A stretch of DNA of 7,654 nucleotides from Spirochaetota bacterium (lineage in GTDB: Bacteria; Spirochaetota; Spirochaetia; Treponematales; Rectinemataceae): the NCBI GenBank assembly GCA_029265255.1, contig JAJUJQ010000037.1, forward strand, positions 1 through 7,654. Direction: 5' to 3'. Positions 1 through 7,654 of the stretch are shown piece after piece. Numbering within the stretch: the stretch's first letter is position 1; every line of letters begins with the position of its first letter. A program made the translations under genes and the position numbers. Under the pieces are notes generated by a model. The model was not told the origin of the DNA. It did no database searches and was given only the letters and a program-made list of their open reading frames with translations.

Positions 1-237
1 CTTCCGGTACGGCGAGGTGAGGAGCACTTCCTCCACGATATCCTGAATTTCCTCCACGGTGGGAGTCTTTTCGCCGAGCGCCTGCTGGGCCAGCGTCAGG
101 GCGCGGAGCGCGAGGCGCTTTGCGATCGGCGCATCGAACTCGCCCGTGGCGGCACCCGCCTTCATGATCGCTCTGGTGATCTTCTCCGCATCGAAGCTGA
201 CCTCGACGCCATTGCGTTTGATGATCGACTGAAACAT
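1..237 (-). CDS. nrdD: Ribonucleotide reductase N-terminal ATP-cone, probably anaerobic class III (NrdD); 3' part outside window
   Basis: Only the first 79 residues are in the window and the frame is open to the edge. They form an ATP-cone, the allosteric nucleotide-binding domain at the N-terminus of ribonucleotide reductases. It starts MFQSIIKRNGVEVSFDAEKI (basic-NG-V-FD-KI pattern, residues 6-20) and ends in the typical PTVEEIQDIVEEVL helix (59-72). The ATG at 237-235 is preceded by a strong AGGGAGGAAG Shine-Dalgarno at 245-254. Ribonucleotide reductase makes deoxynucleotides for DNA synthesis in the cytoplasm. The ATP-cone also occurs in NrdA, NrdJ and NrdR. NrdR is unlikely because it has an N-terminal zinc ribbon before the cone. 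I favour class III NrdD from the anaerobic context and because B12 riboswitches usually repress B12-independent isozymes. The catalytic part is not visible, so the class is an inference. The leader carries NrdR boxes and a cobalamin riboswitch, which strongly supports a reductase. Confidence 0.72.
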   Translation of the reverse strand, partial: MFQSIIKRNGVEVSFDAEKITRAIMKAGAATGEFDAPIAKRLALRALTLAQQALGEKTPTVEEIQDIVEEVLLTSPYRK

Positions 238-244
238 GGTATCT

Positions 245-269
245 CTTCCTCCCTCGGGAAATGAACCGA
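245..269 (-). promoter_or_regulatory. Strong RBS with candidate sequestering hairpin (expression platform of the riboswitch)
   Basis: The ribosome binding site AGGGAGGAAG (245-254) lies 7 nt before the reductase ATG. The stretch UUUCC (257-261) can pair with GGAAG (245-249) across a 7-nt loop and would mask the GGAGG core. An overlapping alternative, UCGG (266-269) with CCGA (254-257), would leave the core open. No T-run follows any stem between the riboswitch and the start codon, so translational control looks more likely than transcription termination. The stems are short (4-5 bp), so this is a proposal from inspection and not a computed fold. Confidence 0.45.
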
Positions 270-279
270 CACATCCGAC

Positions 280-490
280 AGGATAGGTCTTCCGGCTCCG
301 GGCGCTCTACTCGCCCGCCTTCCCATCTCACCCTCTGGCGAGACAGTGGCTTTTTGTTGGGCTTTCGCTCCCGACACGGCTGCGGGGCAGCGGGAGAATC
401 GCACTCCTCTTCCCTGGCTTCCTGCCGCTTCACGCTGCATGCCCCACTCCACTACCACGGAGCGATTCTTGGCATGCAGGATTCTATCCT
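280..490 (-). ncRNA. Cobalamin (B12) riboswitch in the reductase leader
   Basis: On the minus strand the conserved blocks of the B12 element occur in the right order. They are GGGAA with GGAGTGCGATTCTCC (393-407), the GCTGCCCCGCAGC hairpin (379-391), GCCACTG (344-350), GGGAAGGCG (316-324), and the B12 box GCCGGAAGACCTATCC (281-296; family pattern GCCAGGAGACCTGCC). A 7-bp P1 closes the domain: AGGATAG (484-490) pairs with CTATCCT (280-286), giving about 211 nt, normal for the class. Two extra hairpins are visible: CTGCATGCC/GGCATGCAG (471-479 with 435-443) and GGGCG/CGCCC before the B12 box. Binding of a cobalamin such as adenosylcobalamin normally lowers expression of the downstream gene. Here P1 ends only 42 nt before the reductase ATG. 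ATCC (281-284) can alternatively pair with GGAT (273-276), which competes with P1 and offers a possible switch. Confidence 0.92.
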
Positions 491-518
491 AGGCGAGAAC
501 CACGGGGCTGTCAATATA
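486..518 (-). promoter_or_regulatory. Candidate reductase promoter region (two competing assignments)
   Basis: Option A by consensus is TTGACA (509-514), a 17-bp spacer, then TAGGAT (486-491). The transcript would begin near 479, which would leave the 5' strand of riboswitch P1 (484-490) out of the RNA. Option B is a -10 of TATATT (513-518) with no good -35, starting near 506 and keeping the whole riboswitch. Both options overlap the proximal NrdR box, as expected for a repressor site. Which is used cannot be settled from sequence. Confidence 0.4.
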
Positions 519-524
519 TTGTGT
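509..524. promoter_or_regulatory. NrdR box 1 (proximal)
   Basis: TGTCAATATATTGTGT matches the ACACAATATATTGTGT form of the NrdR palindrome at 13 of 16 positions, and its central CAATATATTG is a perfect match. NrdR is an ATP-cone repressor that senses nucleotide status and binds paired boxes upstream of ribonucleotide reductase genes. The box overlaps both candidate promoter elements and is centred 31 bp from a second box. Confidence 0.8.
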
Positions 525-539
525 GGAAAATTTTCATAT

Positions 540-555
540 ATACAACAGATTGTGT
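540..555. promoter_or_regulatory. NrdR box 2 (distal)
   Basis: ATACAACAGATTGTGT matches the same palindrome at 13 of 16 positions, with the right half (ATTGTGT) intact and the centre weaker. The centre-to-centre distance to box 1 is 31 bp, or three helical turns, the spacing known for tandem NrdR boxes. It begins 9 bp past the stop codon of the LacI-family gene. Confidence 0.72.
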
Positions 556-563
556 ACCATCTC

Positions 564-1553
564 TTACGACGACTGTCGCACGATGAGGCTCGAGGGTAAG
601 AGGACCCGCATGGGATCTGGCTTTCGGCCTTCGATGCATTCGAAGAGCATGGCGGCGCTCACTTCTCCCATGCGCTCGAGGGGCAGGGCAAAGGTAGTGA
701 TGGGGATGGGCCAGAAGGAAGCGAACTCTCTGTCGTCGTAGCCGACGACCTTGAGGTCGCCGGGGATCGCCAGCCCATGCGCAAGGGCTCGGTTGATAGC
801 ACCTGCGGCCATGTAGTCGTTTGCACAGAAGACCGCATCGATGTCGGGACAGCGCTCAAGGAGTGCATCGAGGCAGCGGGCTCCTGATTCGGCGCTGAAG
901 TCGCCATGGATCACCCTCTCCGCTGGTTCAAAGTCGACGCCGCATTCTTCGAGGGCACTGATGAAGCCTGCGAGCCGTTCGATACTCGCAAGGCGTCTTT
1001 CCGGCCCCGCGATCACCGCCGGGTGGCGGGCACCCCTGGATACGAGGTGGAGCGCGGCCTCTTTTCCTCCCGCAACATCGTCGGGCTGGACGGAAGGCAG
1101 CGAATCGTGGATGAAGGTGTTGACGGTGACTGCGGGTAAATCGAAGACGGCGCGCATCTCTGAGCTGATCGCCTGGCGCACGCCGTAGGCAGCGATAATG
1201 CCATCCACCCGGCGCTTGCGCAAAAAATCGATAGCGCTCGATATGTCGTTGTCGAATTCCACGCCGCTCGTAAAGAGCAAATAACTGTTTCTTTCGCGCG
1301 CGACTTTTTCTGCGCCATGAATGATCCTTGAGGCGAACACTTCGGTGATATCGAAGGCAAAAAAGCCGATGACGCCTGAGGTCGTCGTGCGGAGCGCCCG
1401 CGCGGCGGGGTTCGGCTCATAGCCGAGCCGCTCGATGGCATCGTATATCTTGTCCTTCGTGGCCTGGCTTATGGGGCGTTTGCCGCTGAGGGCGTGGCTG
1501 ACGGTCGACACCGATACGCCCGCGGCAACGGCGACATCGCGGATGGTGACCAT
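564..1553 (-). CDS. LacI-family transcriptional repressor, likely local regulator of the sugar operon
   Basis: A complete 329-residue protein of normal LacI-family length. The N-terminal helix-turn-helix is VTIRDVAVAAGVSVSTVSHAL (residues 2-22), followed by GYEPNPAARALRT with the hinge helix and its minor-groove leucine L54. The rest is a periplasmic-binding-protein-like effector domain with DGIIA near 117, an R193 in IERLAGF equivalent to the inducer-contacting arginine of LacI, FCANDYMAAGA near 242-252, and VVGYDDREFA near 269-278. It is the last gene of the operon, 17 bp after the glycosidase stop, with only a weak ribosome site (GGTAAG) and no visible promoter of its own. It probably binds the CG-centred palindrome at 6960-6993, which has the AAAACGTTTT core typical of the family. 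That would make it autoregulatory, with a sugar or cleavage product as inducer. Both points are inference. The recognition helix has SH where SR is common. Confidence 0.93.
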   Translation of the reverse strand: MVTIRDVAVAAGVSVSTVSHALSGKRPISQATKDKIYDAIERLGYEPNPAARALRTTTSGVIGFFAFDITEVFASRIIHGAEKVARERNSYLLFTSGVEFDNDISSAIDFLRKRRVDGIIAAYGVRQAISSEMRAVFDLPAVTVNTFIHDSLPSVQPDDVAGGKEAALHLVSRGARHPAVIAGPERRLASIERLAGFISALEECGVDFEPAERVIHGDFSAESGARCLDALLERCPDIDAVFCANDYMAAGAINRALAHGLAIPGDLKVVGYDDREFASFWPIPITTFALPLERMGEVSAAMLFECIEGRKPDPMRVLLPSSLIVRQSS

Positions 1554-1570
1554 GTTCTTACCATACTACA

Positions 1571-3988
1571 TCAGGCCCGCCTTGTGCGATACGCTCCTCT
1601 CAGCACAAGGCGGAGATGTTCTGGCGCGCACTGGAAGCGAAACTCGACGCTCCGGCCGCCTGTGTTCCCCTCATCATCGAGGATGAGAAAGCCTTCGGGG
1701 ACAGTAAAGCGCCAGTACTTTCGGTAGTCGGCGTCGATGGCCGACTGTGTGCGCACGATGTCGAGCACGGCATCGCCGCTGGGCGTCGTTTCGAAGGCCA
1801 TGCGCCAGCGCCAGTAGCTGCCAGGAACAAAATCGCTCTCGCCGTCGTCCTCGCTGTGGATGCAGACAATGGGACGCGAGGCGACATTGCCGGCGCCAGC
1901 GGGAGGCACGACGAGGAATTCATACTCATCCAGCGCCGTCTTCCCCACTGAGCCTACCTTCAGCGATGTAGGGATCACCGTGCCGCAGCGGAAAAAATAT
2001 CGCAGCGAATCGAGAGGATAGTCGAATTCGAGGTGGGTGCCCCCGCGGTGCAGTATGCCGGTGCTCGGGTCGAACCAGTCCGCTCCCGAGGGGAACTGGA
2101 GCTCCGCCCTGGTCATTCCTCGCTCAGGCGGGCCTGGGACAAGGATGGCATCTCCGGCCATTCTGTCGAGGCACTCGTAGGAAAGCGAATGATCGTCCGG
2201 AAATTCGAGCGCCACCGGGCTCTCCATTGGAATTCCGGTCTCCGAGGCGCGGATCGCCAGGTCGTAGATATAGGGGAGAAACCGATAGCGCTCCCGGATG
2301 AAACGACGGATCGCATCCAGCCAGTGCGGGAATATCCATGGCTCCGTGATGCTCCCGTCAGGCTTCCACGAGTGCATTACGAAGCGCGGCTGGAACACCG
2401 CGCTCTGGCACCAGCGGAGCAAGAGCTCCTCGTCTGGGGCAGGCCCCACGAAGCCTCCTAGATCGTGCCCGTACATCGGCATGCCGCTCAGACCCAGGTT
2501 CATGCCCATGACGATGTTGAAGCGGAAACATGCATAGCTGGAGACATTGTCGCCAGTCCACGTGCGCGCGTAGCGCTGGAGGCCCGCATAGCCTGAGCGA
2601 CTTATGAGCCAGGGTCGCTTGCCGGGATTGGCCTTGCGCATCGCCTCGAACGAGGCCTGTGCCATTTTTACTGGCAAAAACTTCTTGCATGCCTGGATGG
2701 GGAGGGACTCGTCCTCGATCTCGAACTCGTTGTTGTCGTTCCAGACTCCCGAGACACCCTTGTCGAGGATGTGCTCGGTCAGTGCTGTAACCCACCAGTC
2801 GAAACCTTCTTTTCGAGAAAAATCGATGAACGAGGCGCTGCCCCCCCAGTAATAGCTCTTGAGCGGAGCGCCATCGGCATCCGGGATGAATGCGCCCGCA
2901 GCCGCAAGGCGCCTGTACCAAGGGTGGCTCGACAGAATCCCCGGCTTTACGTTACAGCAGATGCGGTATCCCCTGGCGCGGAGGGCGCGGATGAACTGCC
3001 CAGGATTAGGAAATTTTTTCCTGTTCCAGACAAAGGTGTAGCGCTCGCCGTTGTCCGCTTTGACATACCCTGAAGAAAAATACATGCCTTCGCAGGGGAT
3101 GCCCTCTTTTTCTACGCGCTCGAAGAATTCGAGTATTCTCTCCTGTGCGTTGTCAGGCTCGGTGTATCCCATGCTGGAGGTGAGGTAACCGAAAGAGAAA
3201 AGGGGAGGAAGTGCAGGCATGCCTGAGAGCCTACAGTAGGCCGAGATGATGTCGCGGTAGTGGTGCCCTGTCATGACATAGTAGCCAAAAGGGCCCCCCG
3301 CAAGCACGACATCATAGTAGAACATGCTCTCGACGCCGAAGTTCACTTCCTCCACCTGCAGGTTGGGGAAGTAGAGTCCGCACAGGGCGCCGCGCTCCCT
3401 GTTGACCTTCATAAAGAAGGGCACCGATTTGTAGAGAGGATCGCTCGATGCCGCGTCATAGCCGAGGGCGTCCCTGTTGAACAGTTTGAACAGACGGTTG
3501 CGCTTGTTCAAATTTCCCGTCTTTTCTCCGAGGCCGAAGAAGGCGTCGCCGTCCTCGAGGCGGAAGTTGAACTTGCCCCGCACCGAGCCTGGCACGGCCC
3601 CCTCTTGAACCCTGAGTGGATACTGGGGAACCACGAGGTCCCTGTGGCCTATCTCGCCGCCGTGGACGAGCACCTCGTCTTCGTACACGGACAGCAGGGC
3701 AGTCTCCTTGTGGATCAGAACCTTCGTGCCTCCGTGGCGAAGCTCATATTCGGTCTCCCTTTCGGCGAACGAGTCCCAGACAAGGCCGGCGCCGCCGGGT
3801 GTGTCCACGACGAGCCCAGGGTAGGGCACATTCGCCGTGGGCGGCACAATCGATTCGTCGAAGATATAAAAAACGGACAGGACGCGGGGAGCCTGGATCG
3901 AGACTTCAAGCCTGCCGTTTTCTCCGAAAAGGGCCGCTCGGCCACCTTCTATGTGGAATTTGTCGAGATTTTTTAGTACATGCAGCAT
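1571..3988 (-). CDS. Glycoside hydrolase family 31 (alpha-glycosidase/alpha-xylosidase type), cytoplasmic
   Basis: An 805-residue GH31 enzyme, which hydrolyses alpha-linked sugars with retention. An N-terminal beta-sandwich (to about 250) is followed by the TIM barrel. The barrel contains GVWNDNNE (414-421) with predicted nucleophile D418, SRSGYAGLQRYARTWTGDN with predicted acid/base D480, and GHDLGGFVG (507-515). Beta-rich C-terminal domains follow. The usual GH31 nucleophile signature is W-x-D-M-N-E; here the methionine is asparagine. The body (SSGYVKADNGERYTFVWNRKKFPNP, KPGILSSHPWY) recalls the clostridial CPE1046-like GH31 branch, a memory-based and tentative match. There is no signal peptide, so it should act on imported oligosaccharide. 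I chose the ATG at 3988 over upstream in-frame starts because it lies 2 nt after the permease stop, has GGAGTGAAGG upstream, and the extra 74 residues would be an out-of-frame read of the permease gene. The substrate cannot be named. Confidence 0.92.
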   Translation of the reverse strand: MLHVLKNLDKFHIEGGRAALFGENGRLEVSIQAPRVLSVFYIFDESIVPPTANVPYPGLVVDTPGGAGLVWDSFAERETEYELRHGGTKVLIHKETALLSVYEDEVLVHGGEIGHRDLVVPQYPLRVQEGAVPGSVRGKFNFRLEDGDAFFGLGEKTGNLNKRNRLFKLFNRDALGYDAASSDPLYKSVPFFMKVNRERGALCGLYFPNLQVEEVNFGVESMFYYDVVLAGGPFGYYVMTGHHYRDIISAYCRLSGMPALPPLFSFGYLTSSMGYTEPDNAQERILEFFERVEKEGIPCEGMYFSSGYVKADNGERYTFVWNRKKFPNPGQFIRALRARGYRICCNVKPGILSSHPWYRRLAAAGAFIPDADGAPLKSYYWGGSASFIDFSRKEGFDWWVTALTEHILDKGVSGVWNDNNEFEIEDESLPIQACKKFLPVKMAQASFEAMRKANPGKRPWLISRSGYAGLQRYARTWTGDNVSSYACFRFNIVMGMNLGLSGMPMYGHDLGGFVGPAPDEELLLRWCQSAVFQPRFVMHSWKPDGSITEPWIFPHWLDAIRRFIRERYRFLPYIYDLAIRASETGIPMESPVALEFPDDHSLSYECLDRMAGDAILVPGPPERGMTRAELQFPSGADWFDPSTGILHRGGTHLEFDYPLDSLRYFFRCGTVIPTSLKVGSVGKTALDEYEFLVVPPAGAGNVASRPIVCIHSEDDGESDFVPGSYWRWRMAFETTPSGDAVLDIVRTQSAIDADYRKYWRFTVPEGFLILDDEGNTGGRSVEFRFQCAPEHLRLVLRGAYRTRRA

Positions 3989-3990
3989 GA

Positions 3991-4800
3991 TTACGCCTTC
4001 ACTCCGCCTGCGGTCAGTCCTTTTACGAAATATTTCTGCAGCGCTAAGAATACGACGATCATCGGTATCATCGTCACGACGGTCATCGCGAGGAGATTCG
4101 CCCAGTTTATCTGGAACTGCCCTACAAAGTTGGCCAGCGCCAGCTGCAGGGTCATCTTTTTCTTGACCGAAATGACGATGAAGGGCCAGAGAAAATCGTT
4201 CCACCGCCACATGAACGAAAAGATCGCGATCGTCGCGATGATGGGCTTCGCGAGCGGCACAATAATCTTCGTGAAAATGCGGAACTCGCCCGCGCCGTCG
4301 ATTCTCGCCGCCTCGATGAAGGAATTAGGAATCGTCTGGATGTACTGCCGCGCCAGAAACACGCCGGTAGGCGTGGCCGCCGGAGGAATAATGATGCCCC
4401 ACAGCGTGTTGAGCATGCCGAGCTCTTTCAAAAGGATAAAAATTGGGACCATGATCGCCTGGAGAGGGATCATCAGCGTGCCCACCATGATAGAGAAGAT
4501 GAGGTCGCGGCCCCTGAACCAAAATTTGGAGAGAGCGTACCCTGCCATAACATTTATAGAGATCGTGAGCAACGTCGCGACCACCGACACGAAGATCGAA
4601 TTCTTGTAGTAGGTGATAAAGTCGCCGCTGGCGAATGCCTTCACGTAGTTGTCGAGCGTCGGAGAACGCGGCAAGATCGTCAGTGGGTACGTGAAGAGTT
4701 CGGACTGTGGCTTCAATGAAGAGATCACCACCCACAGGAGGGGAAAAAGAAATATAAAAGAGACGAGGATGAGGAGGATATACTTGAGTATTCTATTCAT
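3991..4800 (-). CDS. Carbohydrate ABC transporter permease, CUT1 MalG-type
   Basis: A 269-residue inner-membrane permease with six expected membrane segments. The first is at about 5-27 (YILLILVSFIFLFPLLWVVI). The EAA loop that docks the ATPase is EAARIDGAGEFRIFTKIIVPLAKP (about 163-186). The C-terminus QKYFVKGLTAGGVKA is the classic MalG-family ending. The start ATG overlaps the last 8 bp of the upstream permease gene and has GGGAGGAG 8 nt before it, so the two halves of the channel are translationally coupled. Together with the MalF-type partner it forms the membrane pore for the binding protein encoded upstream. The family imports di- and oligosaccharides or glycerol phosphate; the neighbouring GH31 suggests an alpha-linked oligosaccharide. 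Confidence 0.95.
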   Translation of the reverse strand: MNRILKYILLILVSFIFLFPLLWVVISSLKPQSELFTYPLTILPRSPTLDNYVKAFASGDFITYYKNSIFVSVVATLLTISINVMAGYALSKFWFRGRDLIFSIMVGTLMIPLQAIMVPIFILLKELGMLNTLWGIIIPPAATPTGVFLARQYIQTIPNSFIEAARIDGAGEFRIFTKIIVPLAKPIIATIAIFSFMWRWNDFLWPFIVISVKKKMTLQLALANFVGQFQINWANLLAMTVVTMIPMIVVFLALQKYFVKGLTAGGVKA

Positions 4801-5698
4801 TGGTGTACTCCTCCCTCTGCGCCGCGAACTGAAGCGCAGTGAACAGCCCTATGATGGCTAGGAGAATCACGGACATCGCAGCGCCGTAGCCCATCCTGTC
4901 CTCCTCGAACGCCGCCTGGTAGATGTACTGGACGATGAACTTAGTGGACGTGCCCGGGCCTCCCTGGGTCATCACGAATATGAGCTCGTAGGCCTTGAAC
5001 GCCTCGATCGTGGCCAGCACGATGACGACGAGGAGAATAGGCCTGAGGAGAGGAAGTGTGATGCGTCGAAACACAGTAAAGCGGCCTGCACCGTCGATCT
5101 CTGCCGCTTCGTAATAGGTCTTTGGGATGGCCTGCAGGCCGCCGACGAACATCATCATAAAATAGCCCACCCTGGTCCACACCGTGACGAAGATGAGGCT
5201 TATGTTCGCCATGGTGCCGTCAGTGAGCCAGGGCAGGGGTTTTCCCCCCGCCAACCGCAGCACATAATTGATGATTCCTAGGTCATACCCCAAAAGCCAT
5301 CTCCAGGCGATGCCCACGATGATCATGCTGAGCATGGTCGGGACATAGTACATTGCGCGGAATACGCCCATCCCCTTCCCTTCGTCGGCAAGAGGAAGGG
5401 CGAGCGCAAGCGCGAACGTCGCCAGGAGCGGCACGACCGCAGCGACATAGACGAGGGTGTTCTTAAGCGTCAGCCAAAACATGGAATCGTGGAGTATGTT
5501 CCTGAAGTTTTTGAGCCCCACAAAGGTCGAGCCTTCGAGGAAGCTCCAGTCGAAGAGCGACATGCGGAGGCCCAGGATCGCGGGCAGAATGATGAATATG
5601 CCAAAAATGAGCAGATTCGGCGCAAGAAACAGCATGGGAACGAGCGTCTGCTCAAAGGTGCCGTGAGATCGCTTCCTGGGCTTCATAGTCGTTGCCAA
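4793..5698 (-). CDS. Carbohydrate ABC transporter permease, CUT1 MalF/UgpA-type
   Basis: A 301-residue membrane protein that forms the second half of the sugar import channel. A short basic N-terminus (KPRKR) is followed by a first membrane segment at about 20-45 (MLFLAPNLLIFGIFIILPAILG). The EAA loop is YEAAEIDGAGRFTVFRRITLPLLRP (196-220), followed by the family pattern FVMTQGGPGTST (241-252). The reading frame begins at TTG (5698), 12 nt after the binding-protein stop. An in-frame ATG at 5686 (MKPRKRSHG) is an equally good start. Neither has a recognisable Shine-Dalgarno, which is odd in this operon where the other transport genes have good ones; coupling to the upstream stop is likely. The final codons overlap the next permease by 8 bp. 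Confidence 0.94.
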   Translation of the reverse strand: MATTMKPRKRSHGTFEQTLVPMLFLAPNLLIFGIFIILPAILGLRMSLFDWSFLEGSTFVGLKNFRNILHDSMFWLTLKNTLVYVAAVVPLLATFALALALPLADEGKGMGVFRAMYYVPTMLSMIIVGIAWRWLLGYDLGIINYVLRLAGGKPLPWLTDGTMANISLIFVTVWTRVGYFMMMFVGGLQAIPKTYYEAAEIDGAGRFTVFRRITLPLLRPILLVVIVLATIEAFKAYELIFVMTQGGPGTSTKFIVQYIYQAAFEEDRMGYGAAMSVILLAIIGLFTALQFAAQREEYTNE

Positions 5699-5710
5699 TA
5701 GTCGTCGTTA

Positions 5711-6949
5711 TCAGAAGTACGAATTGCCCTTAGCCTGGATGTTGGCCGCGGTCTGCTCCATCGTCTGTTTTCCGAGGAGTCCTTCCACGATCTGCTCGCG
5801 GGCATAGGCGTTGAGTTTGGCCACCACATCGCTCTTCCAGTCCTCCGCCGTATAGGCCGGGGTAAGGTTGAGGTCCTGGGTGAACACAGCGAAATCCTTC
5901 GATCGTGCCGCGTAGGCTATGGTGGCATCTTTGCGCGCCGACAAGTTGAAGGTGTCCCTGCAGTACTGCTCGTTGTGCGCCTTATCGGAGAAGACCGCAA
6001 TGAGATCGAGGGCATCTTTCTTGTTGGGCGAATTCTTGAAGGTGCCGACGAACTTGCCACCCGGCACAGAGGAGTTGATCTTGCGGCTCGGCATGCGCAC
6101 CGCACACCACTCGAAATCTTTGATGTTCTTGTTGTAGGCGTTGATGAGCCACGAACCGCCGACATGGCAGGCCACGAGGCCCGACTGGAAGAGCTCCTGA
6201 GGATTCTCGGAGCCCATCCAGACCGATTTGGGGGCAAGGCCTTCATCGTGCAGCATCTTGAAGAACTTGAGCGCATCCAAAGTTTCGGGAGTGTTGAAGT
6301 TCATCGATGTGCCGTTATTGGAGAGGAAACGCCCCCCTGCCTCATAGAGGAAGGTCGAGAAGCGGTGCGTCGAGAAGTCAACCGTGATGCCGTACTTAGC
6401 CTTCGGATTCGCCTTGAGCACTTTTTTCATCGCGTCCACCCACTGATCCCATGTCCATGTCTGCGAGAGCTTCTCCACATCGATGCCTGCGTTCTTGAAA
6501 TAGGTCTTGTTCACGATCATGCCGTTGGCGGTGGCCTCCGTGGGCATCGCCATGAGCCGGCCATTCTCGTCTCGCCCGAGGGCCAAAGAAGAAGCGAAGT
6601 ATCCCTTGGCGAGCTCATCGAAGACTGGCTTTCCGGAAAGCGGTTCGAGGCTATTCACGAAGAGCGGCACATGGGCGCTCGCGAGCCTGGCGACGTCCGG
6701 GGGATTCCCGCCCGCGATCATCATCCTGAGCTTGTTCTCGTAGTCCTTGAAGGGAATGACCTGCATGTCGATGGCGATGTTTGGGTGGCTCTTCTGATAA
6801 TCGGCCATCGTCGCCATGAACACGTCGGATTCATTCGCGTCGTTGAACCACAGCACGGTCAGCGTCGTCTTGGGCTGTGCCCAGAGGGTACTCAGAGCCG
6901 CCACCACAAGAAGGAACACCAGCAGGGATGCTGTCTTTCTCTGTTTCAT
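5711..6949 (-). CDS. Extracellular sugar-binding protein (CUT1 ABC transporter, family 1 solute-binding protein)
   Basis: A 412-residue periplasmic sugar receptor of normal length. The signal peptide is MKQRKTASLLVFLLVVAALS, cleaved probably after TLWA at residue 24. There is no lipobox cysteine, so the mature protein is soluble in a periplasm, as in diderm bacteria. The mature part opens with TTLTVLWFNDANESD and shows the family features FKDYENKLRMMIAGGNPPDVARL (about 67-90), a TWTWDQWVDAMKKV segment and a VGGSWLINAYNK region. An in-frame upstream start (MTILRRQ, 6973) is rejected: it lies inside the operator palindrome, whereas the ATG at 6949 has GGAGG 6 nt upstream and leads directly into the signal peptide. 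It is first in the operon and feeds the two permeases. The ligand is unknown; an alpha-linked oligosaccharide is inferred from the GH31 gene. Confidence 0.95.
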   Translation of the reverse strand: MKQRKTASLLVFLLVVAALSTLWAQPKTTLTVLWFNDANESDVFMATMADYQKSHPNIAIDMQVIPFKDYENKLRMMIAGGNPPDVARLASAHVPLFVNSLEPLSGKPVFDELAKGYFASSLALGRDENGRLMAMPTEATANGMIVNKTYFKNAGIDVEKLSQTWTWDQWVDAMKKVLKANPKAKYGITVDFSTHRFSTFLYEAGGRFLSNNGTSMNFNTPETLDALKFFKMLHDEGLAPKSVWMGSENPQELFQSGLVACHVGGSWLINAYNKNIKDFEWCAVRMPSRKINSSVPGGKFVGTFKNSPNKKDALDLIAVFSDKAHNEQYCRDTFNLSARKDATIAYAARSKDFAVFTQDLNLTPAYTAEDWKSDVVAKLNAYAREQIVEGLLGKQTMEQTAANIQAKGNSYF

Positions 6950-6960: not shown

Positions 6961-6993
6961 GTAGAATCGTCAAAACGTTTTGACGATTCTACG
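6960..6993. promoter_or_regulatory. Perfect 34-bp palindrome, probable LacI-family operator
   Basis: Each 17-base half (CGTAGAATCGTCAAAAC) is the exact reverse complement of the other. The centre, TCAAAACGTTTTGA, is CG-centred like most LacI-family operators. The palindrome overlaps the last bases of the -10 element and covers the expected transcription start near 6984, a classic repressor position. The likely ligand is the repressor encoded at 564-1553 in the same operon. The perfect symmetry extends well beyond the 14-20 bp usually needed, so part of it could serve another protein or an RNA structure. Confidence 0.85.
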
Positions 6994-7100: not shown

Positions 7101-7654
7101 TCAGACTTCCTCGGCCTTGCGGACAAGTCTCTTCCACTCCCACTCGACATGCTCCTGAATCTGCGCGATATCTTCGTCCGAAAGATGGCGGAAGCGGCTC
7201 TGTGTGCGAAGGTATTCCCGCACCGGCTTATCCCCCGCTTCGTTGATGGTGTACGTGGTGCCGTCTTCGACCTCATAGAGAGGAAAGGCCTTCGTCTGAA
7301 CGGCCAGGCGCGCCACCCCGACAGAGTGCTCCGGCGCAAAGCCCCAACCCGTAGGGCACGAAGCATAGAGGTGGATGAAGCGCAGACCGCTCCGCATGAA
7401 GACGGCCTTCCTCAACTTCCGCTCGAGGTCTTCCGGGTAGGCGATACTCGCGGTCGCCGCATAGGGAATTCTGTGGGCCGCCATAATCTCGACGATATTC
7501 TTCTTGTCGGTCCGCTTCCACTTGTCGCCCGGCGTCGTCATCGTCCTGGCGCCCCAGGGCGTCGAGGAGCTCCGCTGCACGCCGGTGTTCATGTAGGCTT
7601 CGTTGTCGTAGCAGACGTAGATGAAATCTTCACCGCGCTCGGCGGCGGCGCTCA
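7101..7654 (-). CDS. porB: Pyruvate:ferredoxin oxidoreductase beta subunit (C-terminal part; start outside window)
   Basis: The visible 183 residues match the C-terminal half of the thiamine-diphosphate-binding beta subunit of 2-oxoacid:ferredoxin oxidoreductases. Best signatures are CYDNEAYMNTGVQRSSSTPWGA (residues 14-35 from the window edge), KKNIVEIMAAHRIPYAATASIAYPEDL, and the FIHLYASCPTGW segment followed by ARLAVQTKAFPLYEVEDG. The enzyme oxidatively decarboxylates pyruvate to acetyl-CoA and passes electrons to ferredoxin in anaerobes. The family is about 310-320 residues, so roughly 130 N-terminal residues with the main cofactor motif lie beyond the edge. The gene ends with TGA at 7101; no intrinsic terminator is evident before the next promoter. 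A 2-oxoisovalerate-type paralogue is possible, but the MNTGVQRSSSTP motif favours pyruvate. Confidence 0.93.
   Translation of the reverse strand, partial: SAAAERGEDFIYVCYDNEAYMNTGVQRSSSTPWGARTMTTPGDKWKRTDKKNIVEIMAAHRIPYAATASIAYPEDLERKLRKAVFMRSGLRFIHLYASCPTGWGFAPEHSVGVARLAVQTKAFPLYEVEDGTTYTINEAGDKPVREYLRTQSRFRHLSDEDIAQIQEHVEWEWKRLVRKAEEV

Follow-up and report, generated by a model that had tools for sequence, protein, structure and literature searches.

We analysed a window of 7,654 bases of contig JAJUJQ010000037.1 from a Spirochaetota bacterium. On the minus strand, positions 564-6949 form a run of genes in one direction encoding a solute-binding protein, two permeases, a GH31 glycosidase and a LacI-family regulator. 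The regulator gene (564-1553) has its stop at 564, at the top of the 563-to-1 reading order, and ends 8 bp before the first of two NrdR boxes. The 326-bp leader that follows (238..563, minus strand) carries, in order, a pair of NrdR boxes, a promoter and a cobalamin riboswitch, and leads into nrdD, whose ATG is at 237 and whose 5' end (1..237) runs off the window. The box and promoter block occupies 555-486 and the aptamer 462-265. The earlier note on this DNA had claimed that two controls, a pair of NrdR-type palindromes and a full B12 riboswitch, are packed into these 326 bp, and our analysis confirmed the claim.

The NrdR boxes and the promoter

Boxes were scored against ACACWATATATWGTGT, which we take to be the NrdR-box consensus. 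The scan for such boxes that the earlier note had proposed returned two, both on the minus strand: the distal box 1 (ACACAATCTGTTGTAT, 540-555) and box 2 (ACACAATATATTGACA, 509-524), each with 13 of 16 matches and 31 bp apart. No other 16-mer in the window scores higher than 11. No comparable pair arose in 20,000 Markov-simulated sequences with the composition of the 326-bp leader, nor in 20,000 with that of its 84-bp AT-rich part, under a pair criterion laxer than the real pair (each box at least 12, sum at least 25, spacing 30-33 bp); the chance rate of the pair is negligible. The score itself was checked on 761,621 bases from 80 nrdD loci, in plus orientation only. Pairs with each box at 12 or more and a sum of at least 26 occurred 10 times, at eight loci, in every case upstream of nrdD and no further from it than 1 kb. 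Single 16-mers with a score of at least 14, a cut below which the window's own boxes, at 13, fall, numbered 18, and every one of them was situated upstream of nrdD at a distance of no more than about 1.5 kb.

A sigma-70 type promoter, TTGACA-17-TAGGAT (486..514, minus strand, 10 of 12 matches), is the only promoter-like site in 150-700, where shuffled sequences gave a mean of 0.3. Box 2 ends in its -35 hexamer, TTGACA, and transcription would start near 479. The arrangement thus combines two 16-bp palindromes at a distance of 31 bp with a -35 element inside the second. NrdR boxes have been described as 16-bp palindromes (PMC4409342), and NrdR sites as made up of two such boxes spaced by about 31-32 bp (PMC2892513), in the portions of these reports available to us.

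We compared the leader with those of the two loci closest to the window, L001 (a Spirochaetia MAG) and L002 (a Spirochaetales MAG), and with that of a third genome, G019. Box 1 is identical to the window's in L001 and L002 (16/16) and matches at 14/16 in G019, and box 2 matches at 16/16, 15/16 and 14/16, respectively. The bases between the boxes drift (14/15, 12/15 and 8/15), as does the promoter spacer (14/17, 11/17 and 9/17). A hexamer spacing of 17 is found in all four leaders, and the -10 hexamer is kept at 6/6 in L002 and G019 and at 4/6 in L001.

The riboswitch and its expression platform

The search with the Rfam covariance model, also proposed in the earlier note, matched RF00174 at 462-265 on the minus strand with 69 bits (E 7.3e-16) against a gathering threshold of 31.5, so the objection that a significant match might be lacking falls away. 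The match spans model positions 1-189, with the conserved GCCACUG box in the alignment. The predicted transcript likely starts about 17 nt before the aptamer, with a CUGCAUGCC/GGCAUGCAG hairpin. Between the window and L001, L002 and G019, the aptamer core is conserved at 128/133, 126/133 and 121/133 positions and the aptamer tail at 40/41, 38/41 and 38/41; the 5' part of the leader drifts among all four.

We found no terminator-like site in 150-700 of the window, and an intrinsic terminator was accordingly rejected as the expression platform. With no such site found, translational control through a hairpin over the Shine-Dalgarno (SD) sequence is likely, as judged from predicted folds. The hairpin, predicted at 238..267 (minus strand), covers the SD GGGAGGA (253-247) and folds at -9.6 kcal/mol (z -1.86), or at -9.4 (z -1.19) when slightly different ends are chosen; its counterpart in L001 folds at -9.8 (z -2.02). 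A hairpin around GGGAGG 3' of the aptamer is present in eight of ten related leaders, absent from L014 and L030, with z-scores over the ten of -0.34 to -2.25 that are individually weak. The nrdD SD follows directly on the aptamer in the window and in L001. The gap from aptamer to ATG is 27 nt in the window, 119 nt in L002 and 177 nt in G019; in the latter two it also contains a second SD, and the tail stretches folded there are no more stable than their shuffles (z 0.02 and 1.13). For these reasons direct masking of the SD is a model that suits the compact leaders of the window and L001 alone.

The reductase and its counterparts in other genomes

Only 79 codons of nrdD lie inside the window, and they encode an ATP cone alone (61 bits), which leaves identity with a class I or II reductase ambiguous; the full-length relatives settle the matter for class III. 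L001 is 97% identical over the 79 residues (DNA 92.8% over 6,238 bases) and L002 90% (DNA 85.6% over 5,492 bases), and the genes of both run on to a full-length NrdD of 704 residues, which scores 577 bits in L001 and 564 bits in L002 with the NCBIfam NrdD model (cut-off 326), and 1078 and 1066 bits with PRK08270. The nrdG gene that the earlier note had suggested looking for is present in L001, where NrdG2 (205 bits, cut-off 131) overlaps the 3' end of nrdD, giving an nrdDG operon in which an NrdD family member adjoins an NrdG. Judged from its closest relatives, the window's reductase is a class III NrdD, and B12 should therefore not be needed for it.

The two nearest genomes, G001 and G002, each encode NrdR once (188 and 187 bits) and the class II, B12-dependent NrdJ (1,182 and 1,180 residues). 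The expectation that nrdR and nrdJ would accompany the leader thus holds in these two. In G019, where the stacked leader is likewise present, a search of the 2.2 Mb assembly found neither NrdR nor NrdJ. RF00174 matched at least three times in G001 and at least four times in G002, with 150 of 179 and 150 of 189 candidates scored; in each genome one riboswitch precedes nrdD, and no match lies on the nrdJ contig. NrdJ is therefore present without a riboswitch on its contig in G001 and G002. The earlier note had also suggested looking for B12 uptake genes, and both genomes do have a riboswitch before a TonB-dependent receptor whose best model is a B12 receptor, at scores (201 and 195 bits) that stay below the cut-off of 600. 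A further G001 riboswitch precedes an ABC binding protein weakly like BtuF (30 bits, cut-off 234), and of the two remaining G002 riboswitches, the first precedes a succinyl-CoA-ligase-like gene and the second is on a small contig. These other riboswitches share just 10-19 identical bases locally with the nrdD aptamer. The first of the remaining pair (L097:8525-10929) is the strongest in G002, at 111 bits, and its downstream gene encodes a single chain of 690 residues that unites ATP-grasp, CoA-ligase and CoA-binding domains.

NrdR-like pairs also precede nrdJ, with 21/32 matches in G001, 23/32 in G002 and 24/32 in G024, which suggests that NrdR controls both reductases. Upstream of nrdJ in L088, L089 and L138 (about 866-912 of the oriented locus), a conserved NrdR-like box is followed 31 bp on by a degenerate partner. 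The gene content of G001 and G002, with a class III NrdD, NrdR and NrdJ, supports the earlier prediction that the cell would shut this reductase off when B12 is present and use NrdJ instead.

Within the family of G001, represented by 30 genomes, we found NrdD in 17, a class I or II large chain in 28 and some cobalamin riboswitch in 29. The riboswitch precedes nrdD at four of the 17 NrdD loci (G001, G002, G019 and G024), at least two of the 17 being without a gene start, and an NrdR pair accompanies it in three of the four. A wider survey drew the 80 best relatives from species genomes; at 71 of these loci at least 600 nt of upstream sequence were available. At least nine of the 71 have a same-strand riboswitch within 900 nt upstream of nrdD (L001, L002, L009, L010, L014, L030, L035, L059 and L067; L059 and L067 assigned from coordinates, the other seven by script), a count from which stricter filters and a limit of 40 scored candidates per genome may have kept some. 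A B12-box 7-mer prefilter missed L035, which the whole-genome search recovered, and passed L017 and L037, which have no Rfam match. The nine loci belong to two spirochaetes, four Nitrospirota, two Desulfurellales and one other bacterium. NrdJ scores over its cut-off in all nine genomes against 30 of the 62 others (Fisher p 0.0032, with kinship not corrected), a p value that overstates the case since the nine come from these few lineages. Counting L005, in which a riboswitch lies 1,103 nt before nrdD, as the one extra positive gives 10/10 against 29/61, all other loci being judged at 900 nt. NrdR is over its cut-off in seven of 11 riboswitch genomes and below it in G019, G057, G080 and G088. 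In four further loci (L018, L033, L036 and L052) a cobalamin riboswitch lies just upstream of nrdD on the opposite strand, by coordinates, and would serve the divergent gene.

Proposed descent and function of the two-switch leader

In a tree of 76 NrdD rows built by a quick method, L001, L002 and G019 join L005, a Nitrospiraceae MAG, with support 100. These four sit in a group of nine (support 93) that otherwise holds Nitrospirota and one Deferribacteres MAG, and nine other NrdDs of the family stand apart, behind a branch of 2.03. The tree omits five incomplete rows (L010, L014, L034, L059 and L068), three of them riboswitch-bearing; of the 17 family loci, 10 were added, two (L001 and L002) were already in and five (L108 and L116-L119) were omitted. 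We also compared 77 aptamers, 17 taken to start with and 60 hand-picked from riboswitch listings. The nearest aptamer outside the window's clade is L162, which is the one in L005 and is identical at 127 of 151 bases. In the aptamer tree the window, L001, L002, G019 and L162 are joined (support 0.999) within a 17-row cluster (0.92) that is otherwise made up of Nitrospirota, one Deferribacteres and one other bacterium. The surrounding 19-row clade takes in none of the family's 25 other aptamers among the 77, nor the nrdD aptamer of G024.

The two trees, which are rooted at midpoints and sample spirochaetes thinly, agree, and so the aptamer and the enzyme share one history that is best explained by joint transfer; on these alignments, they seem to have moved together between distant bacteria. 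L005, a single MAG contig for which mis-binning is possible, has at 4577-6001 an NrdR-like box (4577, 14/16), the aptamer (4721-4898), a Peripla_BP_2 gene that scores 37 bits with the BtuF model (cut-off 234), and nrdD at 6001; its genome encodes both NrdR and NrdJ. This arrangement could be the ancestral form of the window's leader. A fuller scenario would have NrdR site, promoter, riboswitch and nrdDG arriving in one transfer from a Nitrospirota-like donor. An ABC binding-protein gene would once have stood between riboswitch and nrdD, as in L005, and its later loss would have put the riboswitch's own SD before nrdD in the window and L001 and left longer remnants in L002 and G019. We hold this scenario tentatively, as slightly more apt to be wrong than right. 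The sequence at the second-box position in L005, although it ends in TTGACA, matches at only 8-9/16, which lowers the scenario's probability, and the arrival of both switches together is less sure than the shared history of aptamer and enzyme. A search of the L002 and G019 gaps for traces of the binding-protein gene gave nothing convincing, so that the loss step is our inference. If the scenario holds, a central enzyme and its regulation crossed phyla together, and the newcomer was wired from the start.

As to function, we consider it probable that the leader governs an anaerobic nrdDG operon through two consecutive switches, first the NrdR boxes and then the cobalamin riboswitch. The elements, their order and conservation, the class of the gene in relatives and the occurrence of NrdR and NrdJ in both sister genomes are observed, and we infer how these switches would act. 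At high dATP, NrdR would bind the paired boxes and cover the -35 hexamer, and little mRNA is therefore proposed to be made when deoxynucleotides are plentiful. Any mRNA that is made would begin with the riboswitch; with adenosylcobalamin bound, the SD would be held in its hairpin and NrdD would stay untranslated. The cell would then rely, in the presence of B12, on NrdJ, whose promoter has NrdR-like boxes and no riboswitch. Several observations count against this model. G019 has the stacked leader while NrdJ and NrdR were not found there, and of the two NrdR-like boxes before nrdJ the second is degenerate. The limits of the SD hairpin given above, in L002 and G019 and across the ten leaders, count here as well.

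The riboswitch might instead be a passenger from a lost uptake gene that once stood before nrdD, with little or no function in its present place. The closest aptamer, that of L005, does precede a Peripla_BP_2 gene and then nrdD, and the long gaps with a second SD in L002 and G019 could be what remains of such a gene. A core kept at 121-128 of 133 positions in three relatives while the 5' part, the spacer and the inter-box bases drift argues against this, as do the abutment of aptamer and SD in the window and L001 and the seven further loci where no more than 900 nt separate a riboswitch from nrdD (gap contents aside), and we regard a passenger as unlikely.

It would take still more to explain the palindromes away, as sites of another regulator or as plain AT-rich promoter sequence, and to leave the riboswitch as sole control. 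Paired 16-mers 31 bp apart match the NrdR pattern and occur before nrdD homologues of several phyla, and similar, weaker pairs precede nrdJ in the same genomes, with NrdR encoded in G001 and G002; this makes the idea very unlikely, even though NrdR was not found in G019, and G024 and seven loci (L009, L010, L014, L030, L035, L059 and L067) have a riboswitch without a recognisable box pair. Nor do we give much weight to nrdD being transcribed mainly by read-through from the sugar-uptake and lacI run, with the NrdR promoter mattering little. Some read-through is possible, as 8 bp separate the end of lacI, on the same strand, from box 1 and no site resembling a terminator was found in 150-700, but downstream stands a good promoter whose hexamers and spacing are conserved, and a read-through transcript would still traverse the riboswitch, so that a dominant role for read-through is highly improbable.

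The two-switch logic has precedents. The earlier note had drawn its interest from the presence of both controls on one leader, a combination already published in 2013 for Propionibacterium (Cutibacterium) acnes, where nrdAB and nrdDG have nrd-boxes and cobalamin riboswitches and the same logic was proposed (PMC3848588). According to the available part of that report, P. acnes likewise has these elements before its B12-independent reductases and no riboswitch before nrdRJ. Its nrdAB has a single box at the promoter and its nrdDG a box pair far downstream of the active promoter, whereas the window's pair coincides in part with the predicted promoter from which the riboswitch of the class III gene would be transcribed. 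Streptomyces coelicolor nrdABS also has a B12 riboswitch (PMC4991794 and PMC3293853, citing Borovok 2006), on a B12-independent reductase beside an adenosylcobalamin-dependent NrdJ as here, and its NrdR regulates class Ia and II reductases (PMC2892513); as far as these texts were accessible, nrdABS differs in being class Ia, oxygen-dependent and under transcriptional control, while the window's enzyme is class III and probably controlled at translation. In Chlorobium a cobalamin riboswitch precedes nrdD, as in the window, and regulation in Chlorobi is described as mainly translational; NrdR boxes go unmentioned in the accessible portion of the report (PMC8620254). The nrd promoters of Salmonella and Pseudomonas have a pair of palindromic boxes as well, at a distance of about 31-32 bp (PMC2892513), and in P. 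aeruginosa NrdR box 1 overlaps the -10 (PMC4409342); the available sections of both reports do not mention a riboswitch. We found no report of such combined NrdR and riboswitch control of nrdD in spirochaetes, in a search that reached few subscription papers. The regulatory logic is not new, and the joint descent of nrdD and aptamer may be. With this leader, the joint control of a B12-independent reductase by NrdR and B12 reaches into Spirochaetota and to a class III enzyme there, the switches apparently standing in series.

Two further features of the window lie away from the leader. A 32-bp perfect palindrome, GTAGAATCGTCAAAACGTTTTGACGATTCTAC, is found at 6961-6992, upstream of the sugar-binding protein gene, and is a possible operator for the LacI-family regulator encoded at 564-1553. 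Beyond it, on the minus strand at 7101-7652, we found a partial TPP-binding enzyme (Pfam TPP_enzyme_C), possibly the beta chain of a pyruvate:ferredoxin oxidoreductase.
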